Origin: Bacteroides fragilis NCTC 9343
Lineage (GTDB): Bacteria > Bacteroidota > Bacteroidia > Bacteroidales > Bacteroidaceae
Length of the DNA: 64,000 bases
Direction: 5' to 3'
Assembly (NCBI RefSeq): GCF_000025985.1
Contig: NC_003228.3
Coordinates: 1,922,001 to 1,986,000 of the forward strand
In this document: positions 34,588 through 46,326 of the stretch, in pieces
Position numbering within the stretch: the first letter of the stretch is position 1
How the letters are laid out: the number at the start of each line of letters is the position of its first letter
Program-made: the position numbers and the translations under genes
Notes under the pieces: model-generated
Databases searched by the model: none
Seen by the model: only the letters and a program-made list of their open reading frames with translations
What the model was told of the DNA's origin: nothing

Positions 34588-35709
34588 TTATTCTAAAATT
34601 ACAACACGGTTCAGGAAGTTCTTGCCAAACATGTTGGCTGTTCCACCAAAACCGATGAGTTCCAGTTGATCTTTGCTTACGCCTTCTTTGATAAGAGCGT
34701 CATAAACGGCTTGAGCACGGGCCTCAGACAGTTTCTGGTTCCACTTGGCACTACCTGTAGCCTTATCTGCATAACCGGCTATTTTGTATTTCTTATCCGG
34801 GTTGGCTTTCAAGATCTTAGCGGCCAGTTGGATGTTAACCATACCATAGTCGTCGATCTTGGATTTACCAATCTGGAAGAAGACTGCGCGAGGGCCGGCT
34901 ACTTCGATTTCTTTCACCACTTCTTTCGTTACAGGTTTTACGTTAGCCAGCGCGTTTTTGGCATCGGCTAAGTCCGATTGCGCCTTTGACAGTTCACTTC
35001 TGTAACGATTCAGCTCTTCGTTGATAGCGTTTTGGTCTACCTGTGCACCGCAAGACACGAATCTCTTGCCACCGAATGTGTAAGTCACACCTGCTGTCAG
35101 AGAAACAGCACCGTCAGTACGGGCAGAACTATAATGTCCGAAGAGAGAAGGAGAGACTTCACCTCTTGCTTCTACATTGATATCCAAATATTTGTTGATG
35201 TTGAATTGTCCCATCAAACCGACAGAACCATTAATCAGCGCATTCAGTTTATCTTGATTGCCATAGGCCTTGGCAAACGTAAGTCCCGGACCTGCGAATA
35301 CGGATACAGTGAACAAGCGATCGGGATTATAGCCTCCGATAGCGTTTGACAAGTTGAACAATCCGTCGGCACGTAGAGTGAAGTATTTTTTATTCTTCAT
35401 CTTATTGTATTCGCCTTCCGGCATTCCATATTCGGAGTATAATGTACTCCAACATCCTGCTACCTGGCCACGGATCCCCCAAATAGGGTCGAACAGTTTA
35501 CCGACTGATGCGTGTATCAGTGGAGTTATGGCATGTCCAAAGCCATAATCAAAGTTGTCGGGGTTGACACATCCCTGTGCTCCTACACCCACGCTGATAA
35601 AGATATTATCTTTAGCTTTTTCGCTATAATAATGCTCTTTTGTCTGCGCTGAGGCTGAGACGGCTGCGCCTGTCAACAGTAAAGACAATATTGCTATTTT
35701 ACTTTTCAT
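34588..35709 (-). CDS. OmpA-family outer-membrane protein, left operon gene D1
   Basis: 373 residues. Signal peptide ending at ASAQ (about 22), an N-terminal barrel (about 30-210: ISVGVGAQGCVNPDNFDYGFG), a coiled-coil-like linker (NEELNRYRSELSKAQSDLAD) and a C-terminal OmpA peptidoglycan-binding domain (about 270-373; FFQIGKSKIDDYGMVNIQLAA, EARAQAVYDALIKEGV). It is nearly identical in protein sequence to the right-hand paralogue at 45208, yet synonymous sites differ often. It ends the left operon, one base after gene C1. Confidence 0.9.
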   Translation of the reverse strand: MKSKIAILSLLLTGAAVSASAQTKEHYYSEKAKDNIFISVGVGAQGCVNPDNFDYGFGHAITPLIHASVGKLFDPIWGIRGQVAGCWSTLYSEYGMPEGEYNKMKNKKYFTLRADGLFNLSNAIGGYNPDRLFTVSVFAGPGLTFAKAYGNQDKLNALINGSVGLMGQFNINKYLDINVEARGEVSPSLFGHYSSARTDGAVSLTAGVTYTFGGKRFVSCGAQVDQNAINEELNRYRSELSKAQSDLADAKNALANVKPVTKEVVKEIEVAGPRAVFFQIGKSKIDDYGMVNIQLAAKILKANPDKKYKIAGYADKATGSAKWNQKLSEARAQAVYDALIKEGVSKDQLELIGFGGTANMFGKNFLNRVVILE

Positions 35710-35710
35710 G

Positions 35711-36526
35711 TTATTTCATTTTTTGTTTTAACTCTTTGTTTCGTTTTTGCTTTTTCATTCCATCTTTTCCGGACAAGCGGAACTGGAAAGTCAATCCACC
35801 TGTGAAATATTTCATTCTTTGGAGTTCCACTTGTGCATGCAAATGGTTGAAAAGCAAATAGGTGGCACCTAACGCAAAATCTTTCGAATCATATTCGGCA
35901 ATTAATCTCAATTGCGGATGGAAAGACGGGTTATAACTGATACCTGCCGCGATCCCATTCAGTTTGTACTCTATCCTTTTGTTATAAAGATAGGAGAGGT
36001 GTACTCCCACTGTCTCTCTTCCTAATTGGACATGCCTGGTGGCTGCGATGTAGAAACGACTGAAGTATCCGTTACCTTCCGTCGGAGCCACAACTCCATT
36101 GCCGGACGAGGTAAAAGGATCGGAAGTGCCTACTACAACAGCGGGCATGTATTTCCAGAATTGCCCTTCTTTCAGTGCCCGTAATCTGAGAGAAAAATAC
36201 CGGTCCTGATTCGTAAAGCCTGAGTAACCATAAGGTTTTAATCCAAGAGCTTCCGCCTTAAATAAAGTACAGGTATATGCTACTTCCATCCAAGGTAAAA
36301 TGGTTACATTCAGGTAGTAATTGTACGTGTGGTAGTACCACGTTGGAGGAGTTATCTCCTTATTCATAAAGTTTGCACCCAGCATGACTGTTTTGTCCTT
36401 CTGCATTTCTGCCGAGGGAGCATGCAGCAATCCTGTAGTACCGTAGGTCAATTGAGCCGAAAGCATAAAGGGTATAGCTATAAATAGCGATACTATGAAG
36501 ATTCGTTTTAAATTTACTGTATACAT
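35711..36526 (-). CDS. YjbH-like outer-membrane protein, left operon gene C1
   Basis: 271 residues with a signal peptide ending at LSAQ (about 26). Right after it, LTYGTTGLLHAPSAEMQKDKTV resembles the start of the YjbH family of exopolysaccharide-linked outer-membrane proteins (GTxGLxxxPSA). Regularly alternating strands follow (RYFSLRLRALKEGQ, HLSYLYNKRIEYKLNG, LRLIAEYDSKDFALGATYL). It is about 20 residues longer than the right paralogue because of a basic C-terminal tail (KDGMKKQKRNKELKQKMK). Family call is moderate; function in the envelope or in capsule-type polymer export is inferred. Confidence 0.7.
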   Translation of the reverse strand: MYTVNLKRIFIVSLFIAIPFMLSAQLTYGTTGLLHAPSAEMQKDKTVMLGANFMNKEITPPTWYYHTYNYYLNVTILPWMEVAYTCTLFKAEALGLKPYGYSGFTNQDRYFSLRLRALKEGQFWKYMPAVVVGTSDPFTSSGNGVVAPTEGNGYFSRFYIAATRHVQLGRETVGVHLSYLYNKRIEYKLNGIAAGISYNPSFHPQLRLIAEYDSKDFALGATYLLFNHLHAQVELQRMKYFTGGLTFQFRLSGKDGMKKQKRNKELKQKMK

Positions 36527-36577: not shown

Positions 36578-38797
36578 TTATTCAGAGATGATAATACCAC
36601 CACCGGCATTCAGGTCATCGCCGTGACCATGACCATGTCCATGACCGATCGCTTCAATCGTTCTAACAACTACTGAAGAAATCTTGCTGATTGTAACTTC
36701 AGCTGTTTTCTTTTCGATTGCTTTCGTTGCTTTATTGTAAACAGCAAACGGCAATACATAGGTAGTCTTGATAACGTTTCTTGTTACGTCGAATCCTGTC
36801 AACTGAGTATAAGCTGGTACTTCAAGTTCATATGTGAACTTTTTGTCTGTAAATGCAGCTCCCGGAGTAACATTGGCATTATCGTCTTTGATAGCTTCTT
36901 CCAAAGCTGCGCTGACCATCTTGATAGTAGTTGTAGTTAGTGTGGAATGTGCTTTCTTGATAATTTCTTCTACAGAAGCACCACCTTCGCACTTGATACC
37001 ACCCTTCCAGTTGATTTCCATTTTTACTTTGGCAGTTTCACCTTCAGTGTAGCATGCTTTGTCGAATTTCATAGAATCCAAGGCTGCTTCAGCCGTAGCT
37101 TTGCTGTCGGCTTCTTCGAAACCGAATTTGAATTTAGAGAAGTGGTGAACATTGCCAACAAATACTCCGTTCTGGTAAGTAGCATAGTTTTCTTCAGCTT
37201 CCCAAGTATTAGTCTTTTCATTGAAGTAAAGAGTAGCCAATGCAACTTCAGGAGTTTCTCCTTGCGCTACGACAACTGCAGGAGTAAATTTCACTTCCAT
37301 CGGAGTTACGAAAATAGTTCCGGTTGGAGTACCGTCGTATTCACGGACAGAAGCACCTTCTTTACCTTCGTCAGTACGGCTGATGTTCAGGGTGCTTGCT
37401 ACGCCACTTGTAAAAATGATTATAGTGTTAGCCGGAAGAACGATTTCGTCAATAACGGTTTCTTCTTTATCATTATTAGTATCAATTACTTTAGATTCCA
37501 GTTTGAAGGTCGTTTCTTTCTCGATCGGAAGAACTGCTACCTTATCGATTTCTGTCAAAGTACCGTTGGCTACATATTTTTCCATAGTGTTAACCACCTG
37601 TTCTGCTTGTGCCGGAGTAATCTTGATGTCCGATCCAGCAGCTTCCAAAACCTTGTTAATTGATTCTTCTACAGCAGATTTACTTGGAACTTTTTCACCT
37701 TCTGCTTTTTCCGGTGCGGCTTCAACAGCATTCTCTGTTGGAACTTCAATCTCTACATTGCCACCGATAAATACATTATCGTCATCATTCGGTTTTTCTG
37801 TATCCGGTTTCAGTATCAGAGTTACATTGACTGTGGTGTTAGATACTTGGCCATTGTCTACCGGTGCTATAAATGCAGTATATACATAGATCTTATAGCT
37901 GTTATGACGGATTGTTACAGTTGCTTTAGTCAGACCTTTTACTTTGTCGGCAGGAATCTCGAATTTGTAGAAACCGTTGGAAGCAGTAGTTGTTACTTCG
38001 TATCCTGACATGTTCAGTGTTACTTCAGCCTTAGTAACCATGCCACCATCCTGATTGTAGATATTTCCTGCCAAATAGTATTTAGGGGCAACCTCTACTT
38101 CTTTTTTCTGCATAGCAACAGTTACCGAAGTTTTTGCAATGAAAATACCTTCACCTTCCGGCCCGGCTACTTCACTGATCACAACGTCGGCAGTAGCCGG
38201 TTTGTATCCGTCAGCAGTGATATATATAGTGTGCTGACCCAGACCTACATTGGACATAGTGAATTCGTTACCATTCTGAATGGTTGCTGTCAATATGCCT
38301 GGCATAGTTGCGGTTTTGATAGCTACAGGCTCACCGCTTTCCGCATCAAATACAGAACCTTCAATTTGATATTCTACATCTTTTGTCGGTTTTGTTTCTT
38401 TGCCTTTTTCCATTTTAGCGTCGATGGTATAGGCTACGATAGAACCGTTTTCCTGTTTAGTAACGAATACCGAGCTTGTCACTGTTTTATAACCGCTCTT
38501 TGCAAAAGTTACTACGTTGGTTTCTCCCACTTTAGCTTCCAGAACATACTTACCGTCTGCTGCGGTAGTCATTGACTTTGAGTTTGTGACATTGGTTACT
38601 GTGACACCGTCCATTACAGCATTGCTTTCAGCATCTGTAACAATACCTGCTACTTGGTACGTCGTAGCTGTAGGGTCGGTCACTTTGGGAACATCAATCT
38701 CGTCTTTTTCGTAGCAACTTGCGAACATACCGCACATTGCCAACAGGGTTAGCGCTAACTTAGCGCCATTACCGAAAAGTTTACTTTTCATTTTCAT
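36578..38797 (-). CDS. Large lipoprotein with repeated carboxypeptidase-regulatory-like domains, left operon gene B1
   Basis: 739 residues. Lipoprotein signal with FASC at about residues 24-27 (start MKMKSKLFGNGAKLALTL). Three similar beta-sandwich modules follow (about 45-125, 143-230, 240-330), each with the 'VAGIVTDAESNAVMDGVTVT / GKYVLEAKVG' pattern of carboxypeptidase-regulatory-like domains. A long region without recognised domain (about 340-715) leads to a C-terminal GHGHGHGDD stretch and NAGGG. The first about 30 residues share near-identical DNA with the right-hand lipoprotein, but the rest of the two proteins differs. Predicted to be outer-membrane anchored. Confidence 0.75.
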   Translation of the reverse strand: MKMKSKLFGNGAKLALTLLAMCGMFASCYEKDEIDVPKVTDPTATTYQVAGIVTDAESNAVMDGVTVTNVTNSKSMTTAADGKYVLEAKVGETNVVTFAKSGYKTVTSSVFVTKQENGSIVAYTIDAKMEKGKETKPTKDVEYQIEGSVFDAESGEPVAIKTATMPGILTATIQNGNEFTMSNVGLGQHTIYITADGYKPATADVVISEVAGPEGEGIFIAKTSVTVAMQKKEVEVAPKYYLAGNIYNQDGGMVTKAEVTLNMSGYEVTTTASNGFYKFEIPADKVKGLTKATVTIRHNSYKIYVYTAFIAPVDNGQVSNTTVNVTLILKPDTEKPNDDDNVFIGGNVEIEVPTENAVEAAPEKAEGEKVPSKSAVEESINKVLEAAGSDIKITPAQAEQVVNTMEKYVANGTLTEIDKVAVLPIEKETTFKLESKVIDTNNDKEETVIDEIVLPANTIIIFTSGVASTLNISRTDEGKEGASVREYDGTPTGTIFVTPMEVKFTPAVVVAQGETPEVALATLYFNEKTNTWEAEENYATYQNGVFVGNVHHFSKFKFGFEEADSKATAEAALDSMKFDKACYTEGETAKVKMEINWKGGIKCEGGASVEEIIKKAHSTLTTTTIKMVSAALEEAIKDDNANVTPGAAFTDKKFTYELEVPAYTQLTGFDVTRNVIKTTYVLPFAVYNKATKAIEKKTAEVTISKISSVVVRTIEAIGHGHGHGHGDDLNAGGGIIISE

Positions 38798-38855
38798 CTC
38801 AATAAAATTAAAAATTTAATAATTCAGATTTTATAAAATATGGATTAAAACTATT
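38753..38855. repeat. Left arm of the 103-bp inverted repeat
   Basis: Reverse complement of 43195-43297 with two mismatches out of 103. It spans the last 15 codons of the truncated A' gene, the intergenic stretch (TTAAATTTTTAATTTTATTGAG) and the first 15 codons of lipoprotein B1. Just outside it the two copies quickly lose similarity. Confidence 0.8.
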
Positions 38856-39785
38856 GTTCTTCATTATGTTATCGTCAGGTGCTGAGCGATAAGTCTTATA
38901 GTAATATTGTTCATTTCCCGCATTATAAGACATTCCCATATTATTGGAAGGAGTGATCCGAGGAATATATCCTTTGCGTTTATATCGGTAAGGGGGTAAA
39001 GCTATTTGGAAACGGAATCCTCCATTGGCTTTCACGTCTTTGGCTTTCATTGCATAGAATCCAATGGAAGCATAGCGAAAATGCCGGATTGCTTCTACTC
39101 TAACTGCTTTCTCCTTTAATAGATATTGTTCAACTCTTGCATTTAATTCTACATTATAGCGTGGCCAATAAAAGCTTCCTCCCAATGACCATGTAGCCCG
39201 CATCTTTGTTCCATAATGCATAGTAAAACCTTCCCAATATCCTGTACCGGTATACCCGATGCGGCCTTCTATACTGAAACGTTCATCTTTAAAGTGGTGG
39301 ATCAGGTTGAAGTCGATGCCATATCGGCTATTATTAAAGCTACCGATAGCCAATGTTGCCCAAAAATTATAGGGCAGACGGACTGTTTGCGATAGTTCAA
39401 GGAAACCCGGATGTAGTTTATCGTATCTGCTGGCATATCCGTCATTATATACCGGAATCACCATTTGAGCCGTGAATTTCATCCCTTTCCAGAAAGAGAC
39501 TTCTATGGCGGGTGATAAATTGAAAAGCACTTGATAAATCTGTGTGATTACCAAGTTTTTTAGTGATAATTCCGGATATATTGTGATATCTACTTTATAC
39601 AAAGAGCTATTTGCTTTTTTATTCCTTTTTACTTTGTTCCAGCTATTTCCCAGATTATAACTAACTTCCCAGTCTTGTCTGCTAATATTTACTGTACTAT
39701 CTTTGAAAGATGGCTGATAATAAAGAGATATTTGCGGCACATTGTTATTCAAAACGATAATACGGCATGGCTTTCTTTCGGGTAA
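38808..39785 (-). pseudogene. 5'-truncated copy of gene A (left operon, A')
   Basis: The frame homologous to the right-hand A gene begins at 39785 (LPERKPCRIIVLNNNVPQISL) and lacks the signal peptide and about 110 N-terminal residues. The codon immediately upstream is an in-frame TGA (39786-39788). About half of the remaining about 315 residues match gene A, including FKDERFS, RIGYTG, HFRYASIGFY and FQIALPPYRYKRKGYIPR. The end, SFNPYFIKSELLNF, is identical. No ATG start, signal peptide or promoter is visible, so it is probably silent in this orientation. Confidence 0.75.
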
Positions 39786-39788
39786 TCA

Positions 39789-40132
39789 GTAGTTTGATTT
39801 GTAGAATATCACATCACTTACTTCGTTTCCTAATGTATTGATATACATTGGATTGATGTTTTAGTAGATTTTTCGGTTCTATTAGGACTTTGGCTGGTTG
39901 CTTCTATATGGAAGTATCTCTGTTACTGAGCTGCTACTTTAATTAAGATTCATAAAGAATCTTTGTTTTATTTATAATATTTTGGTTATCAGAATTATAG
40001 TGGATTTTGAAAACCGGTTTTTGTCTGATCGCTTTTTATTAGAAATCTTTTTTCATGGACTTTTGTTACCTGTTTGTTACTTATAACAGAATAATGTCTA
40101 TATTTATAACTAAAAACATACAAACAAATAAT
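39789..40132. other. Gene-free stretch between A' and the recombinase
   Basis: About 340 bases upstream of both the truncated A' (minus) and the recombinase (plus). No TAnnTTTG promoter facing A' was found. A small hairpin AAGATTC/GAATCTT is at 39955-39973. A weak promoter-like pair for the recombinase (TTTG 40073-40076, TATATTTA 40099-40106, 22 bases apart) is possible. Confidence 0.45.
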
Positions 40133-41275
40133 ATGAAAAAAGAAGTAAGGATTAAAGAACCGGTCAGGATCAGGACTAAACGTCTGTCGAACGGTTGTGA
40201 GTCTATATATTTAGATATTTATATGGATGGAAGAAGACGATATGAATTTTTAAAGCTATATATAATACCCGAGCATACACGGACGGATAAAGATTTAAAT
40301 CAGAGCACCATGAAACTGGCCAGTGCAGTGAAGGCACAAAGGATTATAGAATTACAGAATGGAGTATACGGCTTTAACCATCAACAGGAAAAGAAAGATA
40401 TAATGCTGATAGATTATATCAAGTATTTGGCAGACAAGGATATAGAAAAAACTTCAAGGAAAGTGTCTATGTATACACTGATATACCATCTTCAGCATTA
40501 TGATAAGATGGGTATCAGACTCAGACAGGTAGATAAAAAGTATATACTTGGCTTTGTTGAATACTTGAAGACGGCAACTCAGAAACACTGTAAAAGTGTG
40601 AAGAATATAAGTGCCAATACTCAAGTTCATTATTATAAGGTTTTTCATCATTGCCTGAATAGTGCTGTAATTGATGAAATTATAACTTCAAATCCAATGG
40701 ATAAGATAAAAAATGAGGAAAAGCCTAAGCGGAGAAGGACTGAACGGGCATTTCTGACTATTGATGAATTGAAAATATTGTCACAAACAGATTTTCATAA
40801 TGCGACTTTAAAAAAGGCTTTTCTATTCAGTTGTTTTTGTGGACTGAGACATAGTGATATAGTGGCACTTACATGGGGAAATCTGAAAAAGGGAAAAGTC
40901 GGTAAAATGGAGCTGCATATGACGCAACAGAAAACTCAGGAAATCCTCTCTCTTCCTCTGAGCAAGGAGGCTTTGAAACAACTTCCTGTCCGCGGAAAAG
41001 TACCTGATACAGAGAAAGTGTTCAAAGGTCTTATCAGTTTAGGAAGAACCAATGAAATATTACCCAAATGGGCTGCTAAAGCCGGTATTCAAAAGCATAT
41101 TACTTTTCATTCGGCACGACATACCCATGCCACAATGATGATTACTCTCGGTGCCGATCTTTATACGGTATCTAAACTCTTGGGACATACCAATATTCAA
41201 ACAACTCAGATTTATGCCAAGATAGTGGATGAAAGTAAAGAGAAGGCTATCGATTTAATTCCGGATATAACTTGA
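40133..41275 (+). CDS. Tyrosine-type site-specific recombinase
   Basis: 380 residues from the ATG at 40133 (MKKEVRIKEPVRIRTKR); the frame is open further upstream, to 40055, but those codons look non-coding. The N-terminal arm-binding part (about 1-85) and SAM-like core-binding domain (about 90-200) are followed by the catalytic domain with all key residues: CGLRHSD (Arg), HSARHTHA (His-x-x-Arg), LLGHTNIQTTQIYAKI (His and nucleophilic Tyr). Its length and layout match Bacteroides integrase/invertase (Tsr-like) enzymes. It sits between two oppositely oriented paralogous surface operons, with no phage or conjugative genes near, so DNA inversion is a more likely job than integration. Confidence 0.9.
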   Translation: MKKEVRIKEPVRIRTKRLSNGCESIYLDIYMDGRRRYEFLKLYIIPEHTRTDKDLNQSTMKLASAVKAQRIIELQNGVYGFNHQQEKKDIMLIDYIKYLADKDIEKTSRKVSMYTLIYHLQHYDKMGIRLRQVDKKYILGFVEYLKTATQKHCKSVKNISANTQVHYYKVFHHCLNSAVIDEIITSNPMDKIKNEEKPKRRRTERAFLTIDELKILSQTDFHNATLKKAFLFSCFCGLRHSDIVALTWGNLKKGKVGKMELHMTQQKTQEILSLPLSKEALKQLPVRGKVPDTEKVFKGLISLGRTNEILPKWAAKAGIQKHITFHSARHTHATMMITLGADLYTVSKLLGHTNIQTTQIYAKIVDESKEKAIDLIPDIT

Positions 41276-41400
41276 GAGGATGATGTATAGCAAGGTTAGA
41301 TAGTTGCTAAAAAACGAATCTCAAAAAGATACAAGAGGCTAAGAAAATGCTACAAAAGAATTTTCGTTTTGTAATGTGTTGAAAATGAACGTTCTATATA

Positions 41401-41471
41401 TTAATATCCTGCATTTACAAAGTTAACTTTAAACCTGTGTTAAAGTTAACTTTGTAAATGCAGGATATTAA
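41401..41471. repeat. Perfect 31-bp inverted repeat with 9-base spacer
   Basis: 41401-41431 is the exact reverse complement of 41441-41471; the spacer is AACCTGTGT (41432-41440). The arms contain TAAAGTTAACTTTGTAAATG. No T-tract follows, so it is a poor terminator. It is a candidate binding or exchange site for the recombinase encoded just upstream. Confidence 0.85.
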
Positions 41472-41510
41472 CTTCGTAGATGTATCAAGTTAACTTCGTA
41501 AATCGAGAAA
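41445..41510 (+). repeat. Three 22-bp direct repeats (GTTAACTTYGTAAAT)
   Basis: Units begin at 41445 (GTTAACTTTGTAAATGCAG), 41467 (ATTAACTTCGTAGATGTATC) and 41489 (GTTAACTTCGTAAATCGAG), exactly 22 bases apart; a fourth, inverted, copy is in the left arm of the palindrome (41401-41431). This phased arrangement is like arm-type sites or iterons. Confidence 0.75.
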
Positions 41511-41912
41511 TATGATTATCTCTTTGGATGATTAACATTGTTAATGCAATAATTTCAATCTTTGTGTTATTATATATAAGAAATACATTATTATATGTAT
41601 TGATGTTTTTTATCTATTTTTTATTTGGGTGGTTAATAAATATATATTTGGTTAGATTAGCTACTGCCTGATTTTACCGGAATTTAGTAAATTTGTAATA
41701 TAGTAGATATACTATTGAAAATTTGATCTTACTATATAATACGATTTGATTTTATTAATTTGTTAGCCTTATAACTCTCTCTATTAGTGATTCTAAAATA
41801 GGAGGTGGATATTATTTAAGATTACAAGTGGGTTTTCTGGTCCATTTTTAAGCAAACAGGTATTTGGATGAAAAAAAACTGATACAAATGTGCGAAAAAA
41901 CATGTAAAATTC
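41511..41912. other. Gene-free AT-rich leader region
   Basis: No coding frame worth naming between the direct repeats and the promoter of the right operon. Mostly A/T-rich sequence. Confidence 0.5.
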
Positions 41913-41943
41913 TTTGGTATTATTAAAATTGTGTCTATTTTTG
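41913..41943 (+). promoter_or_regulatory. Consensus promoter of the right envelope operon
   Basis: TTTG (41913-41916), exactly 19 bases, TATTTTTG (41936-41943): an exact match to the Bacteroidetes TTTG-N19-TAnnTTTG promoter. The gene A start codon is about 52 bases downstream. It lies inside the segment bounded by the 103-bp inverted repeat, so an inversion would carry it. Confidence 0.75.
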
Positions 41944-41994
41944 CACCATATTTTGCATCCATAAATTTAGATGCTTAAGTTATAAAGCAAACAA

Positions 41995-43242
41995 ATGAAT
42001 CACAAAGGCCCTTACATGAGGAAAAACATAACAATTGGCACTACTTTGCGCAGAATTTCACTCATATTATTCTGTTTACTTCCTTTGAAGGGGATTTGTC
42101 AAACAGGAGAGGCCACTGTTGACGCACTTGTTAAGATGGGATTTGAAAATGTAGGGTGGACAGAAGATACTGAAGAACGGGTTTTTGTGATACAAAACTC
42201 AGCCTATCGCCTTGAGGGAGTTGGAATAGGTAAAGCGGTTGATTTGATCCAGAAGATGGGTTTACCCGAAAATAAGCCATGTAGGTTAATAGTTTTAGAC
42301 AATAATGTTCCTCAGATATCCCTCTATTATCAGCCGATGAAAGGAGATAGTATTGCTGAAGTCAGTCGGGCTGATTGGAGTGTAAGTTATGATTTGGGAG
42401 AAGGATGGAAACAAGCGAGACGGATTAAGAAGCAAAATAGCTCTTTGTTTAAAGTAGATATAGTGGTGTATCCGGAGTTGTTGTTTAGAAACTATATTTT
42501 ATCTAAGGTCTATGAAATAGTGGTTAATGTTTCTCCTGCCATAGAAGTTTCTTTGTGGAAAGGAATGAAACTGACTGGACAAGTAATTTTTCCTATCTAT
42601 AATGATTATGGACAAAGGTATAAGCAAATCCGTCCAGGTTTTGTGACTTTGTCGCAGACAGTACGTTTACCACAGCGTACATTCCTGACTGCTTCGGTCG
42701 GTTTTTTTAATAAATTTCGTTGGGGAGGAGATTTGAAAGCAAAGCACTTCTTTAAAGATGAGCGCTTTTCGGTAGATGCGCGTATCGGATATACCGGAAG
42801 AGGATACTTTGAAGATTGGGCTTTTTATCATGGAACCAAATGGACCTTGACAGGTTCTATTGGGGCGAATTTCTATTGGCCAAAGTATAATACGCAGTTT
42901 AGTTTAAAGGGGGAAAGATATTTAGAAGGAGAGTATGGTGCACGTTTTGATATGATTCGTCATTTTCGATACGCTTCTATTGGCTTTTATGGAATGAAGG
43001 TGCAACATGCGGGTAACAAAGGGCTGAATGGCGGCTTCTTGTTCCAGATAGCATTGCCTCCGTATAAATATAAGAGAAAAGGTTATATCCCAAGAGTGAT
43101 ACCCAATAATTTCGGATTCCAATATAATGCGGGTAATGAGCGTATATATGGTAAAGGATATAGTCCTCAGGCAAGTGATAACGTGATGGAAAATAATAGT
43201 TTTAATCCATATTTTATAAAATCAGAATTATTAAATTTTTAA
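41995..43242 (+). CDS. Right operon gene A, complete barrel-like envelope protein
   Basis: 415 residues with a signal peptide (LRRISLILFCLLPLKGICQ, cut about residue 36). An N-terminal domain (about 40-105: VDALVKMGFENVGWTED) is missing from the left copy. The rest is rich in amphipathic strands (RRFSVDARIGYTG-like, HFRYASIGFYGMKV, GGFLFQIALPPYKYKRKGYIPR) and looks like an outer-membrane barrel; the GFYxM...GGFxFQIAxP pattern recalls the C-terminal half of YjbH proteins. It is followed after 10 bases by the lipoprotein gene. Confidence 0.7.
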   Translation: MNHKGPYMRKNITIGTTLRRISLILFCLLPLKGICQTGEATVDALVKMGFENVGWTEDTEERVFVIQNSAYRLEGVGIGKAVDLIQKMGLPENKPCRLIVLDNNVPQISLYYQPMKGDSIAEVSRADWSVSYDLGEGWKQARRIKKQNSSLFKVDIVVYPELLFRNYILSKVYEIVVNVSPAIEVSLWKGMKLTGQVIFPIYNDYGQRYKQIRPGFVTLSQTVRLPQRTFLTASVGFFNKFRWGGDLKAKHFFKDERFSVDARIGYTGRGYFEDWAFYHGTKWTLTGSIGANFYWPKYNTQFSLKGERYLEGEYGARFDMIRHFRYASIGFYGMKVQHAGNKGLNGGFLFQIALPPYKYKRKGYIPRVIPNNFGFQYNAGNERIYGKGYSPQASDNVMENNSFNPYFIKSELLNF

Positions 43243-43297
43243 TTTTATTGAGATGAAAATGAAAAGTAAATTTTTCGGTAATGGCGCTAAGTTAGCG
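43195..43297. repeat. Right arm of the 103-bp inverted repeat
   Basis: Reverse complement of 38753-38855 with two mismatches (plus the base changes just outside). It covers the end of gene A, the A-B gap and the start of lipoprotein B2. The identical stretch includes non-coding bases and synonymous codon positions. Confidence 0.8.
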
Positions 43298-44329
43298 TTA
43301 GCCGTTTTGGCAGTTTGCGGTACACTGTTTACAAGCTGCTATGAGAAAGCAGAAGTTGATCAAGCAACAAAACCAGCTGAAGCAAAGTATTATATTGCTG
43401 GTACGATTACTGATGCGACTACAGGCCAGGAATTGACTACTGCTAAAGTTACATTGGGTGATAAATCTGTCACTAGCTCTTTTAACGAGCAAGTTAATTA
43501 CAAGGCAGAAGGTTATGCTTTAGTCGTTTCAGCAGACGGATACTATCCTGTTAAAAGACAAGTTTATCTGAATCAGGTAAGTGATGGTCAGACAAGTGTT
43601 GCTACTGTTAATGTTGCATTGGTTTCAGTTGAAGCCGCAGTTATTCCTCCGGTAGTTCCTCCGACAGATCCTGAGACTGACATCAATGAAGGAGAAGCAA
43701 CTAAGGTTGCGGACAAGGCGGTAGAAGTAGCTAAACCTTCTGAATCAACTGTAACCGATATGCTTGCTGGTACTACAGCTACACCCGAAGAGAAAAAAGC
43801 ATTGGATGAGACTCTTGAAATGGCAGGAGGAATGAAAGTTGGTGAAACTACTCCTGAAGTTCTTGCTGATGGTTCTATTCTTGCTATTACTCCGGTGAAA
43901 TTTACGAATCCTATTCAGGATGCTCCGGCTATGGTTCCTTATTTCTATAATGAAGGTTGTGAACTAACAGGTGATGTAAAAGAAGTTGCTGCTCCTGTAA
44001 CAAGAGCTGATGGTGCTGTTGCAGCTGATATTCAGAAAGCATTCTTATCAAACGCTGCTAAGGCTCTGAACATGAATGCAGGGTTTGTTCAGAAGATCGG
44101 TTATACTCGGATTAGTGTATTGAATGGTTATAGCATCTTGGGTTATACAATTAAAGGACAATTGGTTTCTAAGAAACTGACATTCTTGATCTCTGGCAAA
44201 TATTATGAAGGTATCGTTTCTTATCAGAAGAGCGTAATGATCTATCCTAACTATTACAGCCACGATTCTCATGATTCTCATGATTCTCACGGTTTCAACC
44301 CGAATGCCGGTGGTGGATCTAACGACTAA
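43253..44329 (+). CDS. Lipoprotein, right operon gene B2
   Basis: 358 residues. The signal (MKMKSKFFGNGAKLALAV) ends at FTSC (about residue 28), followed by YEKAEVDQ, like B1. One carboxypeptidase-regulatory-like module (about 45-125: YYIAGTITDATTGQELTTAKVT) is followed by a region without recognised domain. The C-terminus is SHDSHDSHDSHG, then NPNAGGGSND, the counterpart of the GHGHGHG/NAGGG tail of B1. The two lipoproteins otherwise differ in length (358 against 739) and sequence, which makes them candidate alternative surface antigens. Confidence 0.75.
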   Translation: MKMKSKFFGNGAKLALAVLAVCGTLFTSCYEKAEVDQATKPAEAKYYIAGTITDATTGQELTTAKVTLGDKSVTSSFNEQVNYKAEGYALVVSADGYYPVKRQVYLNQVSDGQTSVATVNVALVSVEAAVIPPVVPPTDPETDINEGEATKVADKAVEVAKPSESTVTDMLAGTTATPEEKKALDETLEMAGGMKVGETTPEVLADGSILAITPVKFTNPIQDAPAMVPYFYNEGCELTGDVKEVAAPVTRADGAVAADIQKAFLSNAAKALNMNAGFVQKIGYTRISVLNGYSILGYTIKGQLVSKKLTFLISGKYYEGIVSYQKSVMIYPNYYSHDSHDSHDSHGFNPNAGGGSND

Positions 44330-44396
44330 TCAGAGTAAAGTAATTGTTGAGAATTGAAAAGTACGAGTTGAACCGAAAGTATAGAAATTGCAGATA

Positions 44397-45146
44397 ATGA
44401 TGAAAAAGATATTTCTTATAGGCTTGTTCCTTTGCTGTCATTTGGCACTTTCGGCTCAGTTGACGTACGGAACTACCGGTCTGCTTCATGCCCCGTCAGC
44501 AGAGATGCAACGGGATAAGACGGTAATGATCGGTGGAAATTTTTTAAATAAGGAGATAACTCCTCCTACATGGGATTACCATACGTATAATTACTTTTTG
44601 AACGTAACTATCTTTCCCTGGCTGGAAATAGCTTATACATGTACGTTGTTTCAGTCGCAGACGATAGGGATTGATTGGAAGGTCGGAAAGAAGAAGTTTA
44701 CGAATCAGGACAGGTATTTTTCTGCCCGTTTGCGAGTTTTGAAAGAAGGACAATTGTGGAAGTACATGCCGGCTGTTGTAGTGGGAACTTCGGATCCCTA
44801 TACCGAGTCTGGCGATGGCCAAGTAGGTTCTGCTGATGGTAATGGCTATTTCTGCCGTTTTTATGTCGCAGCCACCAAGCATATCCCAATTGGAAAGGAG
44901 AAGATAGGTGTACATCTGTCATATCTGTACAATCGAAGAGTGGATTACCACTTGAATGGATTAGCCGGAGGTCTTACTTACGCTCCATCTTTTGCCCCCG
45001 ATCTGACAGTAATCGCGGAATATGATGCGAAAGACTTTGCGTTTGGTGCTACCTATTTGCTTTTCAACCATTTGCATGCGCAGGTAGAATTGCAAAGAAT
45101 GAAGTATTTTACCGGCGGACTTACTTATAAAATCTATTTGAAGTAA
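44397..45146 (+). CDS. YjbH-like outer-membrane protein, right operon gene C2
   Basis: About 249 residues from the ATG at 44397 (the TTG at 44388 would add three). Signal peptide ends at LSAQ, and LTYGTTGLLHAPSAEMQRDKTV follows, as in C1. The protein aligns with C1 along its whole length except for C1's basic tail and a short different segment (DWKVGKKKFTNQ). Same inference: an outer-membrane component of an envelope or polymer-export apparatus. Confidence 0.7.
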   Translation: MMKKIFLIGLFLCCHLALSAQLTYGTTGLLHAPSAEMQRDKTVMIGGNFLNKEITPPTWDYHTYNYFLNVTIFPWLEIAYTCTLFQSQTIGIDWKVGKKKFTNQDRYFSARLRVLKEGQLWKYMPAVVVGTSDPYTESGDGQVGSADGNGYFCRFYVAATKHIPIGKEKIGVHLSYLYNRRVDYHLNGLAGGLTYAPSFAPDLTVIAEYDAKDFAFGATYLLFNHLHAQVELQRMKYFTGGLTYKIYLK

Positions 45147-45207: not shown

Positions 45208-46326
45208 ATGAAAAGTAAATTAGTAATATTATCTTTATTGTTGGCCGGTGCTACTGCAGCTACTGCTCAGACTAAAGAGACGTTCTACAGCGAAAGCTTC
45301 AAGGACAATATCTTTGTGAGTGTAGGTGTTGGCGCTCAGGGTTGTGTAAACCCGGACAACTTTGATTATGGCTTTGGTAAAGCCATAACTCCGCTGATCA
45401 ATGTGTCAGTTGGTAAACTGTTCAATCCGGTTTGGGGTATCCGTGGTCAGGTAGCCGGTGCATGGACTACTTTGTATTCTAACTATGGACAGCCTGCCGA
45501 TACTTATATTAAGAGCAAGAATAAACATTACTTCACTATGCGTGCAGACGGTATGTTTAACTTGTCCAATGCTATTGGCGGTTACAACCCGGATCGTTTG
45601 TTCACCGTTTCTGTTTTTGCAGGTCCCGGTTTGACATTTGCCAAAGCTTATGGCGATCAGGATAAAGTAAATGCGTTGATTAACGGTTCTGTTGGTTTGG
45701 CTGGACAGTTCAATATCAACAAATACTTGGATATCAACATTGAAGCAAGAGGAGAAGTTTCTCCGTCTCCGTTTGGTAATATCAGCTCTGCCCATACCGA
45801 TGGTGCTGTTTCTCTGACTGCTGGTGTGACTTACACTTTCGGTGGCAAGAGATTTGTTTCTTGTGGCTCTCAGGTAGATCAGAACGCTATCAACGAAGAG
45901 TTGAATCGTTACAGAAGCGAGTTGGCTAAAGCTCAGTCTGATCTGGCTGATGCTAAGAACGCACTGGCTAACGTGAAACCTGTAACCAAAGAAGTGGTGA
46001 AGGAAATCGAAGTAGCCGGACCTCGTGCTATCTTCTTCCAGATTGGTAAATCTAAGATCGATGATTATGGTATGGTTAACATACAGCTGGCTGCCAAGAT
46101 CTTGAAGGCTAATCCGGATAAGAAATACAAGGTGGCAGGTTATGCAGATAAGGCTACCGGTAGCGCTAAGTGGAACCAGAAACTGTCTGAAGCTCGTGCA
46201 CAGGCTGTTTATGATGCACTTATCAAAGAAGGTGTAAGCAAGGATCAGCTTGAACTCGTCGGCTTCGGTGGTACTGCCAATATGTTTGGCAAGAACTTCC
46301 TGAACCGCGTTGTGATTCTGGAATAA
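45208..46326 (+). CDS. OmpA-family outer-membrane protein, right operon gene D2
   Basis: 372 residues, organised as D1: signal peptide ending at ATAQ, barrel, linker (NRYRSELAKAQSDLADAKN) and OmpA domain (FFQIGKSKIDDYGM, ARAQAVYDALIKEGVSKDQL). The OmpA domain ties the outer membrane to peptidoglycan. The two D proteins are almost the same in amino acids but differ at many synonymous positions, so the duplication is old and the proteins are under strong constraint. A terminator follows. Confidence 0.9.
   Translation: MKSKLVILSLLLAGATAATAQTKETFYSESFKDNIFVSVGVGAQGCVNPDNFDYGFGKAITPLINVSVGKLFNPVWGIRGQVAGAWTTLYSNYGQPADTYIKSKNKHYFTMRADGMFNLSNAIGGYNPDRLFTVSVFAGPGLTFAKAYGDQDKVNALINGSVGLAGQFNINKYLDINIEARGEVSPSPFGNISSAHTDGAVSLTAGVTYTFGGKRFVSCGSQVDQNAINEELNRYRSELAKAQSDLADAKNALANVKPVTKEVVKEIEVAGPRAIFFQIGKSKIDDYGMVNIQLAAKILKANPDKKYKVAGYADKATGSAKWNQKLSEARAQAVYDALIKEGVSKDQLELVGFGGTANMFGKNFLNRVVILE

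Follow-up and report, generated by a model that had tools for sequence, protein, structure and literature searches.

We describe here a locus of Bacteroides fragilis NCTC 9343 at which a tyrosine recombinase gene lies between two outward-facing, paralogous four-gene operons. The window, a stretch of 64,000 nucleotides (C1:1922001-1986000), comes from a genome of 5,241,700 bases (chromosome, 5,205,140). The genes are D1-C1-B1-A' on the minus strand, the recombinase on the plus strand, and A-B2-C2-D2 on the plus strand; Pfam assigns domains to the recombinase, OmpA-like, YjbH-like and lipoprotein products, and finds no match for A. This gene order is as an earlier account of the same DNA (the sequence-only reading) gave it, and we retain from that account an inversion switch whose recombinase-encoding segment would move a promoter between paralogous surface operons, but not its place of exchange, a 103-bp repeat at the A/B junctions. 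We consider it very probable that the locus is a recombinase-encoding DNA-inversion switch at codon 90 of A, choosing which four-gene surface operon is expressed. Its features are as follows.

34588..35709, minus strand: D1, OmpA-like (Pfam)
35711..36526, minus strand: C1, YjbH-like (Pfam)
36578..38797, minus strand: B1, lipoprotein of 739 amino acids, predicted to be silent in this genome
38808..39785, minus strand: A', the body of A (residues 90-415), predicted to be silent; no promoter match, and an in-frame stop immediately upstream
39766..39785, minus strand: proposed A' recombination site, TTACCCGAAAGAAAGCCATG, from codon 90 of the body predicted to be silent
39783..42264: proposed invertible segment with the recombinase, the promoter and A codons 1-89, the cores being 2,482 bp apart
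40055..41275, plus strand: tyrosine recombinase, open reading frame (Pfam PF00589, PF17293, PF13102)
41913..41943, plus strand: promoter of Bacteroides type, TTTG-N19-TAnnTTTG, upstream of A
41995..43242, plus strand: A, 415 amino acids, an N-terminal alpha/beta domain and then a beta-barrel (open reading frame, predicted model)
42262..42281, plus strand: proposed A recombination site, TTACCCGAAAATAAGCCATG, codons 90-96 of the promoter-linked A
43253..44329, plus strand: B2, lipoprotein, promoter-linked in this genome and identical to PDB 3g3l
44388..45146, plus strand: C2, YjbH-like (Pfam)
45208..46326, plus strand: D2, OmpA-like (Pfam)

Our survey of the genus covered 158 genomes, 105 of which have a relative of A at E <= 0.001. 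The switch arrangement is present in 14 of the 158: NCTC 9343, its two nearest relatives in the survey, S82 (G014) and Q1F2 (G369), G276, G381 (B. oleiciplenus), G418, G456 (B. stercorirosoris), G375, G384 (B. salyersiae), G458, G380 (B. nordii), G367 (B. fluxus), G360 and G457. Body-only copies of A occur beside full-length ones, and among the matches listed most of them start near residue 88-90. The switch sits at RuvX-Def, which is also found in 23 of the 33 other stretches with A relatives (mostly lone operons, with some fragments).

The promoter, TTTG-N19-TATTTTTG, is at 41913-41943, where it had been placed earlier, and is the only match found for A; the 520 nt that precede the A' site hold no match to its consensus. 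Such a promoter precedes each of the 15 switch-type A genes that were examined, that of G409 among them, and five of six lone A genes, and none of 16 A' copies. The A' operon is therefore predicted to stay silent until it is flipped; expression would be expected to follow promoter linkage.

The inverted pair at 39766-39785 and 42262-42281 is shorter than the 103-bp repeat and was missed by the sequence-only reading. The two copies share a 20-bp match, and the silent A' starts exactly where this match starts; its homology to A starts with the L90 codon, which in NCTC 9343 is at TTACCCGAAA..AAGCCATG, and the reading frame is kept at both sites. A pattern derived from the site occurs twice in the window against 0.04 occurrences expected from shuffles, and has only two copies at full match genome-wide. 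A third genome match, at C1:2918730 with one mismatch, was set aside as chance because it falls in an apparent ribosomal-protein region and a reversed control pattern gave two matches. Scanning IMG/VR for the site gave no matches, while a scan of genome contigs gave ten, eight of them in Bacteroides and two outside the genus, in metagenome-assembled genomes of Prevotella and Planctomycetaceae.

The two copies of the site evolve in concert. Fifteen A/A' pairs from 12 genomes were compared; G360, G457 and G409 were left out for gaps, contig ends or separate contigs, the A' of G409 also being different. In the 30 nt upstream of the site, A and A' are 0.10-0.33 identical in 14 of 15 pairs (0.50 in G276), and the 17-base core that follows agrees at 17/17 positions in 13 of 15 pairs and at 15/17 in NCTC 9343 and Q1F2. 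Taking one pair from each of the 12 genomes, core mismatches average 0.33 within genomes against 2.76 between them, and none of 20,000 shuffles gave a value as low. When lineages are collapsed to seven genomes there are 2 mismatches in 119 positions against a permutation mean of 19, and among 5,040 pairings the true one alone is as good. Both copies differ jointly from those of other species, with CCA in S82, CCACAG in B. nordii, CCGGGG in B. fluxus and GTCATG in G458. Of the 13 switch-type A genes that could be read, 12 have AAGCCATG and one has AAGTCATG; the 24 site sequences from lone A genes, which formed the negative group, all lack AAGCCATG.

Orientation varies among the relatives. The promoter-linked operon is proximal to RuvX-Def in seven of ten judged genomes (NCTC 9343, S82, Q1F2, G375, G456, G384 and G458) and distal in three (G276, G381 and G418), four switch genomes not having been judged. 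The comparison across Bacteroides genomes that the sequence-only reading had called for thus finds both orientations among relatives (G418 against G375 and G456), and not within B. fragilis. Between G418 and G375 the left flank and cassette are collinear at 97.5% identity up to the site (12528/9937; site codon 12526/9934), the interior is inverted at 92.8%, and collinearity resumes beyond the right-hand cassettes at 95.9%; as these cassettes differ and the inverted block carries on into the related bodies next to it, only the left edge is defined by this pair. Between G418 and G456 the left collinear block ends at the site (12528/10109, 74%), the interior is inverted, and the right collinear block begins at the site (20934/18251, 87.7%).

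The promoter-linked A genes of G418 and G375 are 98.3% identical in the 60 nt before the site and 81% identical in their bodies, and the linked body of G375 corresponds to a silent body of G418 (96% over 300 nt). At the protein level the linked cassette of G375 and this silent cassette of G418 are 98.8% identical in the A body and 97.4% in the lipoprotein. When the 60 nt that precede the silent slot-2 site are compared without gaps, identity is only 0.28; the gapped 92.8% block covers this stretch. The earlier idea of a constant A, with only B-C-D swapped, does not fit G418, G375 and G456, where the A body travels with B.

In the draft genome G457, four contig ends lie at the site: contigs C22 and C167 begin at its body side and C180 has a site at each of its two ends. 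We give little weight to G360, where runs of N cover sites. G435, a contig of which also ends near codon 89 of an A gene, was not counted, since neither body nor recombinase was found alongside. Together, the start of A', the matching of the sites, the breakpoints and the contig ends at codon 90 argue for an invertible segment of about 2.5 kb rather than the 4.3 kb previously supposed.

The bodies in G457 begin with AAAAAGCC and AGAAAGCC and the upstream sides finish with TTACCGGAT and TTTCCGGAT, which suggests that CCGGATA is the shared exchange region. The corresponding bases in NCTC 9343 are CCCGAAA, and it is likely that the crossover falls within them; we take CCCGAAA as the overlap on general knowledge of the overlap length expected for tyrosine recombinases. 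The flanks of the site are weakly inverted, with agreement at 12 of 25 positions once one flank is reverse-complemented. Three sites each are present in G418, G375 and G456, and G457 and G360 apparently have more than one silent body, as judged from broken contigs. Two otherwise different A bodies of G375 (L145 and L146) are 99% identical from nt 20 to 120 after the site, which suggests conversion tracts adjoining it.

The mechanism that we favour is that the tyrosine recombinase exchanges strands between two inverted sites of about 20 bp, one at codon 90 of A and the other at the first codon of the A' body. The 2.5-kb segment would flip, taking with it the recombinase gene, the promoter (the sole match for A) and A codons 1-89, which would carry the signal sequence and part of the N-terminal domain, and A residues 1-89 would be spliced in frame onto the other body. 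Either A2-B2-C2-D2 or A1-B1-C1-D1 would then be made, such that A body, lipoprotein, YjbH-like and OmpA-like proteins are exchanged together; in some relatives a third cassette would turn the arrangement into a small shufflon.

The recombinase matches PF00589 at E 2.9e-22, and its translation, read by eye, has the catalytic residues R, HxxR, H and Y. With this enzyme, near-identical inverted sites and both orientations (the last in relatives only), the locus has three of the attributes of an inversion switch. It does not fall among shufflons, which have at least three sites, as NCTC 9343 has two full-match sites, nor among intergenic invertible promoters (invertons), as the sites lie at A codon 90 and at the start of the A' body. 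Against the NCBIfam XerD model the enzyme scores 75 bits, below the curated cut-off of 329.6. Its true start is probably M27, at about 40133; the matches of several relatives contain a stop, which probably sits before that start (40055-40132).

Relatives of the recombinase at E <= 1e-120 occur in 17 of the 158 genomes, namely the 14 with the switch and G032, G365 and G455. By eye, those of G032 and G365 lie near mobilization-like genes and that of G455 near a tape-measure-like gene; the coordinates of these close relatives outside the switch are given below.

L032 8944-10116: close recombinase relative, mobilization-like or prophage-like neighbours
L192 9394-10539: close recombinase relative, mobilization-like or prophage-like neighbours
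L193 9226-10401: close recombinase relative, mobilization-like or prophage-like neighbours

In a tree of 29 recombinases, built without G365 and G455, the 14 switch enzymes and the mobile-element enzyme of G032 form one group (100/99), with the G032 enzyme nested inside it at weak support (87/77). The recombinase could have been recruited from mobile elements or lost to them, both being possible.

The 103-bp inverted repeat, at which the sequence-only reading had placed the exchange, is present with two mismatches as it had described and extends to 146 nt at 91% identity. Its arms are:

38753..38855, minus strand: left arm of the A/B-junction repeat, probably not the crossover
43195..43297, plus strand: right arm of the A/B-junction repeat

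It spans the last codons of A and A', the intercistronic gap and, as had also been pointed out, the start of both lipoprotein signal peptides. A third genome match of the repeat, at C1:1745766, proved to be an unrelated gene start. Across the 15 pairs the last 48 nt of A are 0.73-1.00 identical, and the stretch from the stop to about codon 20 of B is 0.59-0.99 identical. Because the similarity of the A part between species is nearly as high as that within genomes, we attribute it mainly to constraint on the A terminus, that is, on the C-terminus of the predicted barrel, with possible gene conversion; the part with the start signals and signal peptides may likewise reflect constraint.

Three other explanations have to be weighed against a switch at codon 90, with probabilities that overlap in part, and several observations speak against our interpretation. 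Were the crossover to lie in the 103-bp repeat, 4.3 kb would flip and B-C-D alone would be swapped behind a constant A. The length of the repeat, its mere two mismatches and the preserved frame agree with this, as does one position at which S82 differs from NCTC 9343 in both arms, although several others differ in one arm only. The last 51 nt of A also show a small excess of similarity within genomes (seven pairs have 48 mismatches, of which G276 contributes 30, where permutations average 59; 17 of 5,040 permutations as low), which counts against exchange at codon 90 alone and may reflect occasional exchange at the A/B junction. Yet collinearity in G418, G375 and G456 stops at codon 90, the A tail is conserved between species, and the G457 contigs cross the A/B junction and still start at codon 90. 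Two genomes that have both recombinase and A' moreover show little of the repeat, namely G367 (0.59 after the stop) and G276 (0.73 and 0.59), and we regard a crossover in the repeat as the least probable of the three. Also counting against a simple reading of the switch, the differing right-hand cassettes mean that G418 and G375 are not related by one simple inversion, and G409 and G394, both draft assemblies (with a diverged A' site in G409), have a body-only A with no recombinase at E <= 1e-120 among the matches listed.

That the inverted duplication is a relic which no longer flips in NCTC 9343, its similarity being due to gene conversion and constraint, is improbable, if the least so of the alternatives. 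NCTC 9343, S82 and Q1F2 share one orientation, two of the 17 core bases, neither of them in the CCCGAAA overlap, differ between the sites of NCTC 9343, and each of the two mismatches in the 103-bp repeat is on the same arm in S82, the first two of these being points against our proposal as well. However, the reading frames of the recombinase and of both A bodies are open, the core has changed in both S82 copies (CCA for CCC), and orientation varies among relatives, so that the switch may well be active in NCTC 9343. It is in turn unlikely, more so than a relic, that the recombinase acts elsewhere and that codon-90 inversion is due to another enzyme or to homologous recombination. The hairpin at 41401-41471 would be a candidate site with its perfect 32-nt stem, and master invertases of B. 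fragilis act at a distance (PMC4747536); the link of this recombinase to the codon-90 site is one of co-occurrence only, which again tells against us. Against this alternative, 14 of the 17 close recombinase relatives are in loci with the site and an A' copy. A match of about 20 bp is also short for homologous recombination, and we favour action by this recombinase.

As to the hairpin itself, it lies in the gap between recombinase and promoter, has a 7-nt loop, and resembles fragments that occur elsewhere in the genome, at several positions; it could be a terminator or a protein-binding site.

The arrangement of an operon switch at codon 90 was not found in the open-access literature searched, the scope of which does not include key papers of 2004-2009. 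Among these, Weinacht et al. (2004) reportedly described tyrosine-recombinase inversions affecting outer surface proteins of B. fragilis. The Hin switch of Salmonella uses a serine recombinase and makes no splice inside a coding sequence, and in this differs from the codon-90 switch. In the excerpted texts, papers citing Weinacht tie that locus to autoaggregation and a fimbrial-protein locus (PMC12632263, PMC4319957), and Hin is like the present locus in that its recombinase gene lies within the flipped segment (PMC5903667).

DNA inversion at surface genes is well established in Bacteroides (PMC12632263, PMC4747536, PMC3090145, PMC5729914, PMC10939037). A close likeness is to shufflon EE of B. 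fragilis and the SusC-SusD shufflons, in which inversion puts silent sets of outer-membrane-protein genes behind one promoter (PMC5729914); Tsr0667 is the name given with the SusC-SusD shufflons (PMC4747536). In these shufflons the first gene has its start codon within the repeats (PMC5729914), but the promoter is upstream of the shuffled region and is itself invertible, whereas in NCTC 9343 promoter, N-terminal coding part and recombinase gene would move with the segment that flips, and each cassette is an A-lipoprotein-YjbH-OmpA operon. The hsdS shufflon BB likewise combines intragenic rearrangement with an adjacent tyrosine integrase gene (PMC3090145), but swaps target-recognition domains of one subunit and not whole operons. 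Invertible regions R and S involve putative outer-membrane proteins in NCTC 9343, 638R and YCH46 (PMC3090145), and overlap as a complex shufflon, in contrast to the two full-match sites here; the excerpted text on R and S gives no gene numbers, and one of the two could be this locus. A further system of B. fragilis phase variation resembles ours in its tyrosine recombinase and surface proteins, and differs in that promoters are inverted, at BF2767-2769 and BF3397-3403 of YCH46 (PMC4747536). Several capsular polysaccharide (CPS) and S-layer switch sites share GTTAC (PMC12118408), from which the codon-90 site differs.

B2 is fully identical to PDB 3g3l over 326 aligned residues, and 3g3l is BF1687 of NCTC 9343 (PMC4387736). 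That paper notes OmpA-like and DUF940 neighbours of the BF1687 lipoprotein family; the word recombinase is absent from it, and its excerpted text describes no inversion. Residues 655-737, at the end of the silent B1, have a weak match (E 5.5e-5) to PDB 3kog, with which BF1687 was compared (PMC4387736). In Q1F2 (L139 12476-13549) the B2 lipoprotein is 77.7% identical to that of NCTC 9343, and A, C2 and D2 are 95-99% identical; the lipoprotein may have changed fast or been replaced.

The predicted model of A (mean pLDDT 84) has a helix at residues 74-88, a strand of the N-terminal domain at 96-102 and then the barrel, a layout that would place the splice point between helix and strand. A fold search with this model returned generic barrels only, none at E <= 0.001, and a search of solved structures a single match at E 0.82. 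A third, distant relative of A (34%; L110) lies at G000 C1:3270341-3271576, with a TGA within the match and the gene order C-A-B. The two operons of G276 share an inverted repeat of 1,215 nt with 97% identity, made up of the C genes and the D-gene ends (L095 5123-6337 and 13907-15121), which suggests recent gene conversion at the distal ends.

Taken over the genus, we lean towards a class of switch spread across Bacteroides. An integrase with kin in mobilizable elements and a prophage-like element would have been recruited to splice in frame at codon 90, joining a shared promoter, signal peptide and half-domain onto alternative barrel bodies, so that the whole four-gene machine changes, with at least three cassettes in some species. 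For NCTC 9343, a much-used gut symbiont strain, an exact crossover site is now proposed for a surface switch, and the presence of the arrangement in 14 of 158 genomes extends its reach beyond one strain. If the proposal is true, the displayed lipoprotein (BF1687/3g3l or its 739-residue relative) and the barrel depend on DNA orientation, and work that disregards orientation, whether in comparing strains, in proteomics or on the binding of phages or hosts, could mix two populations.

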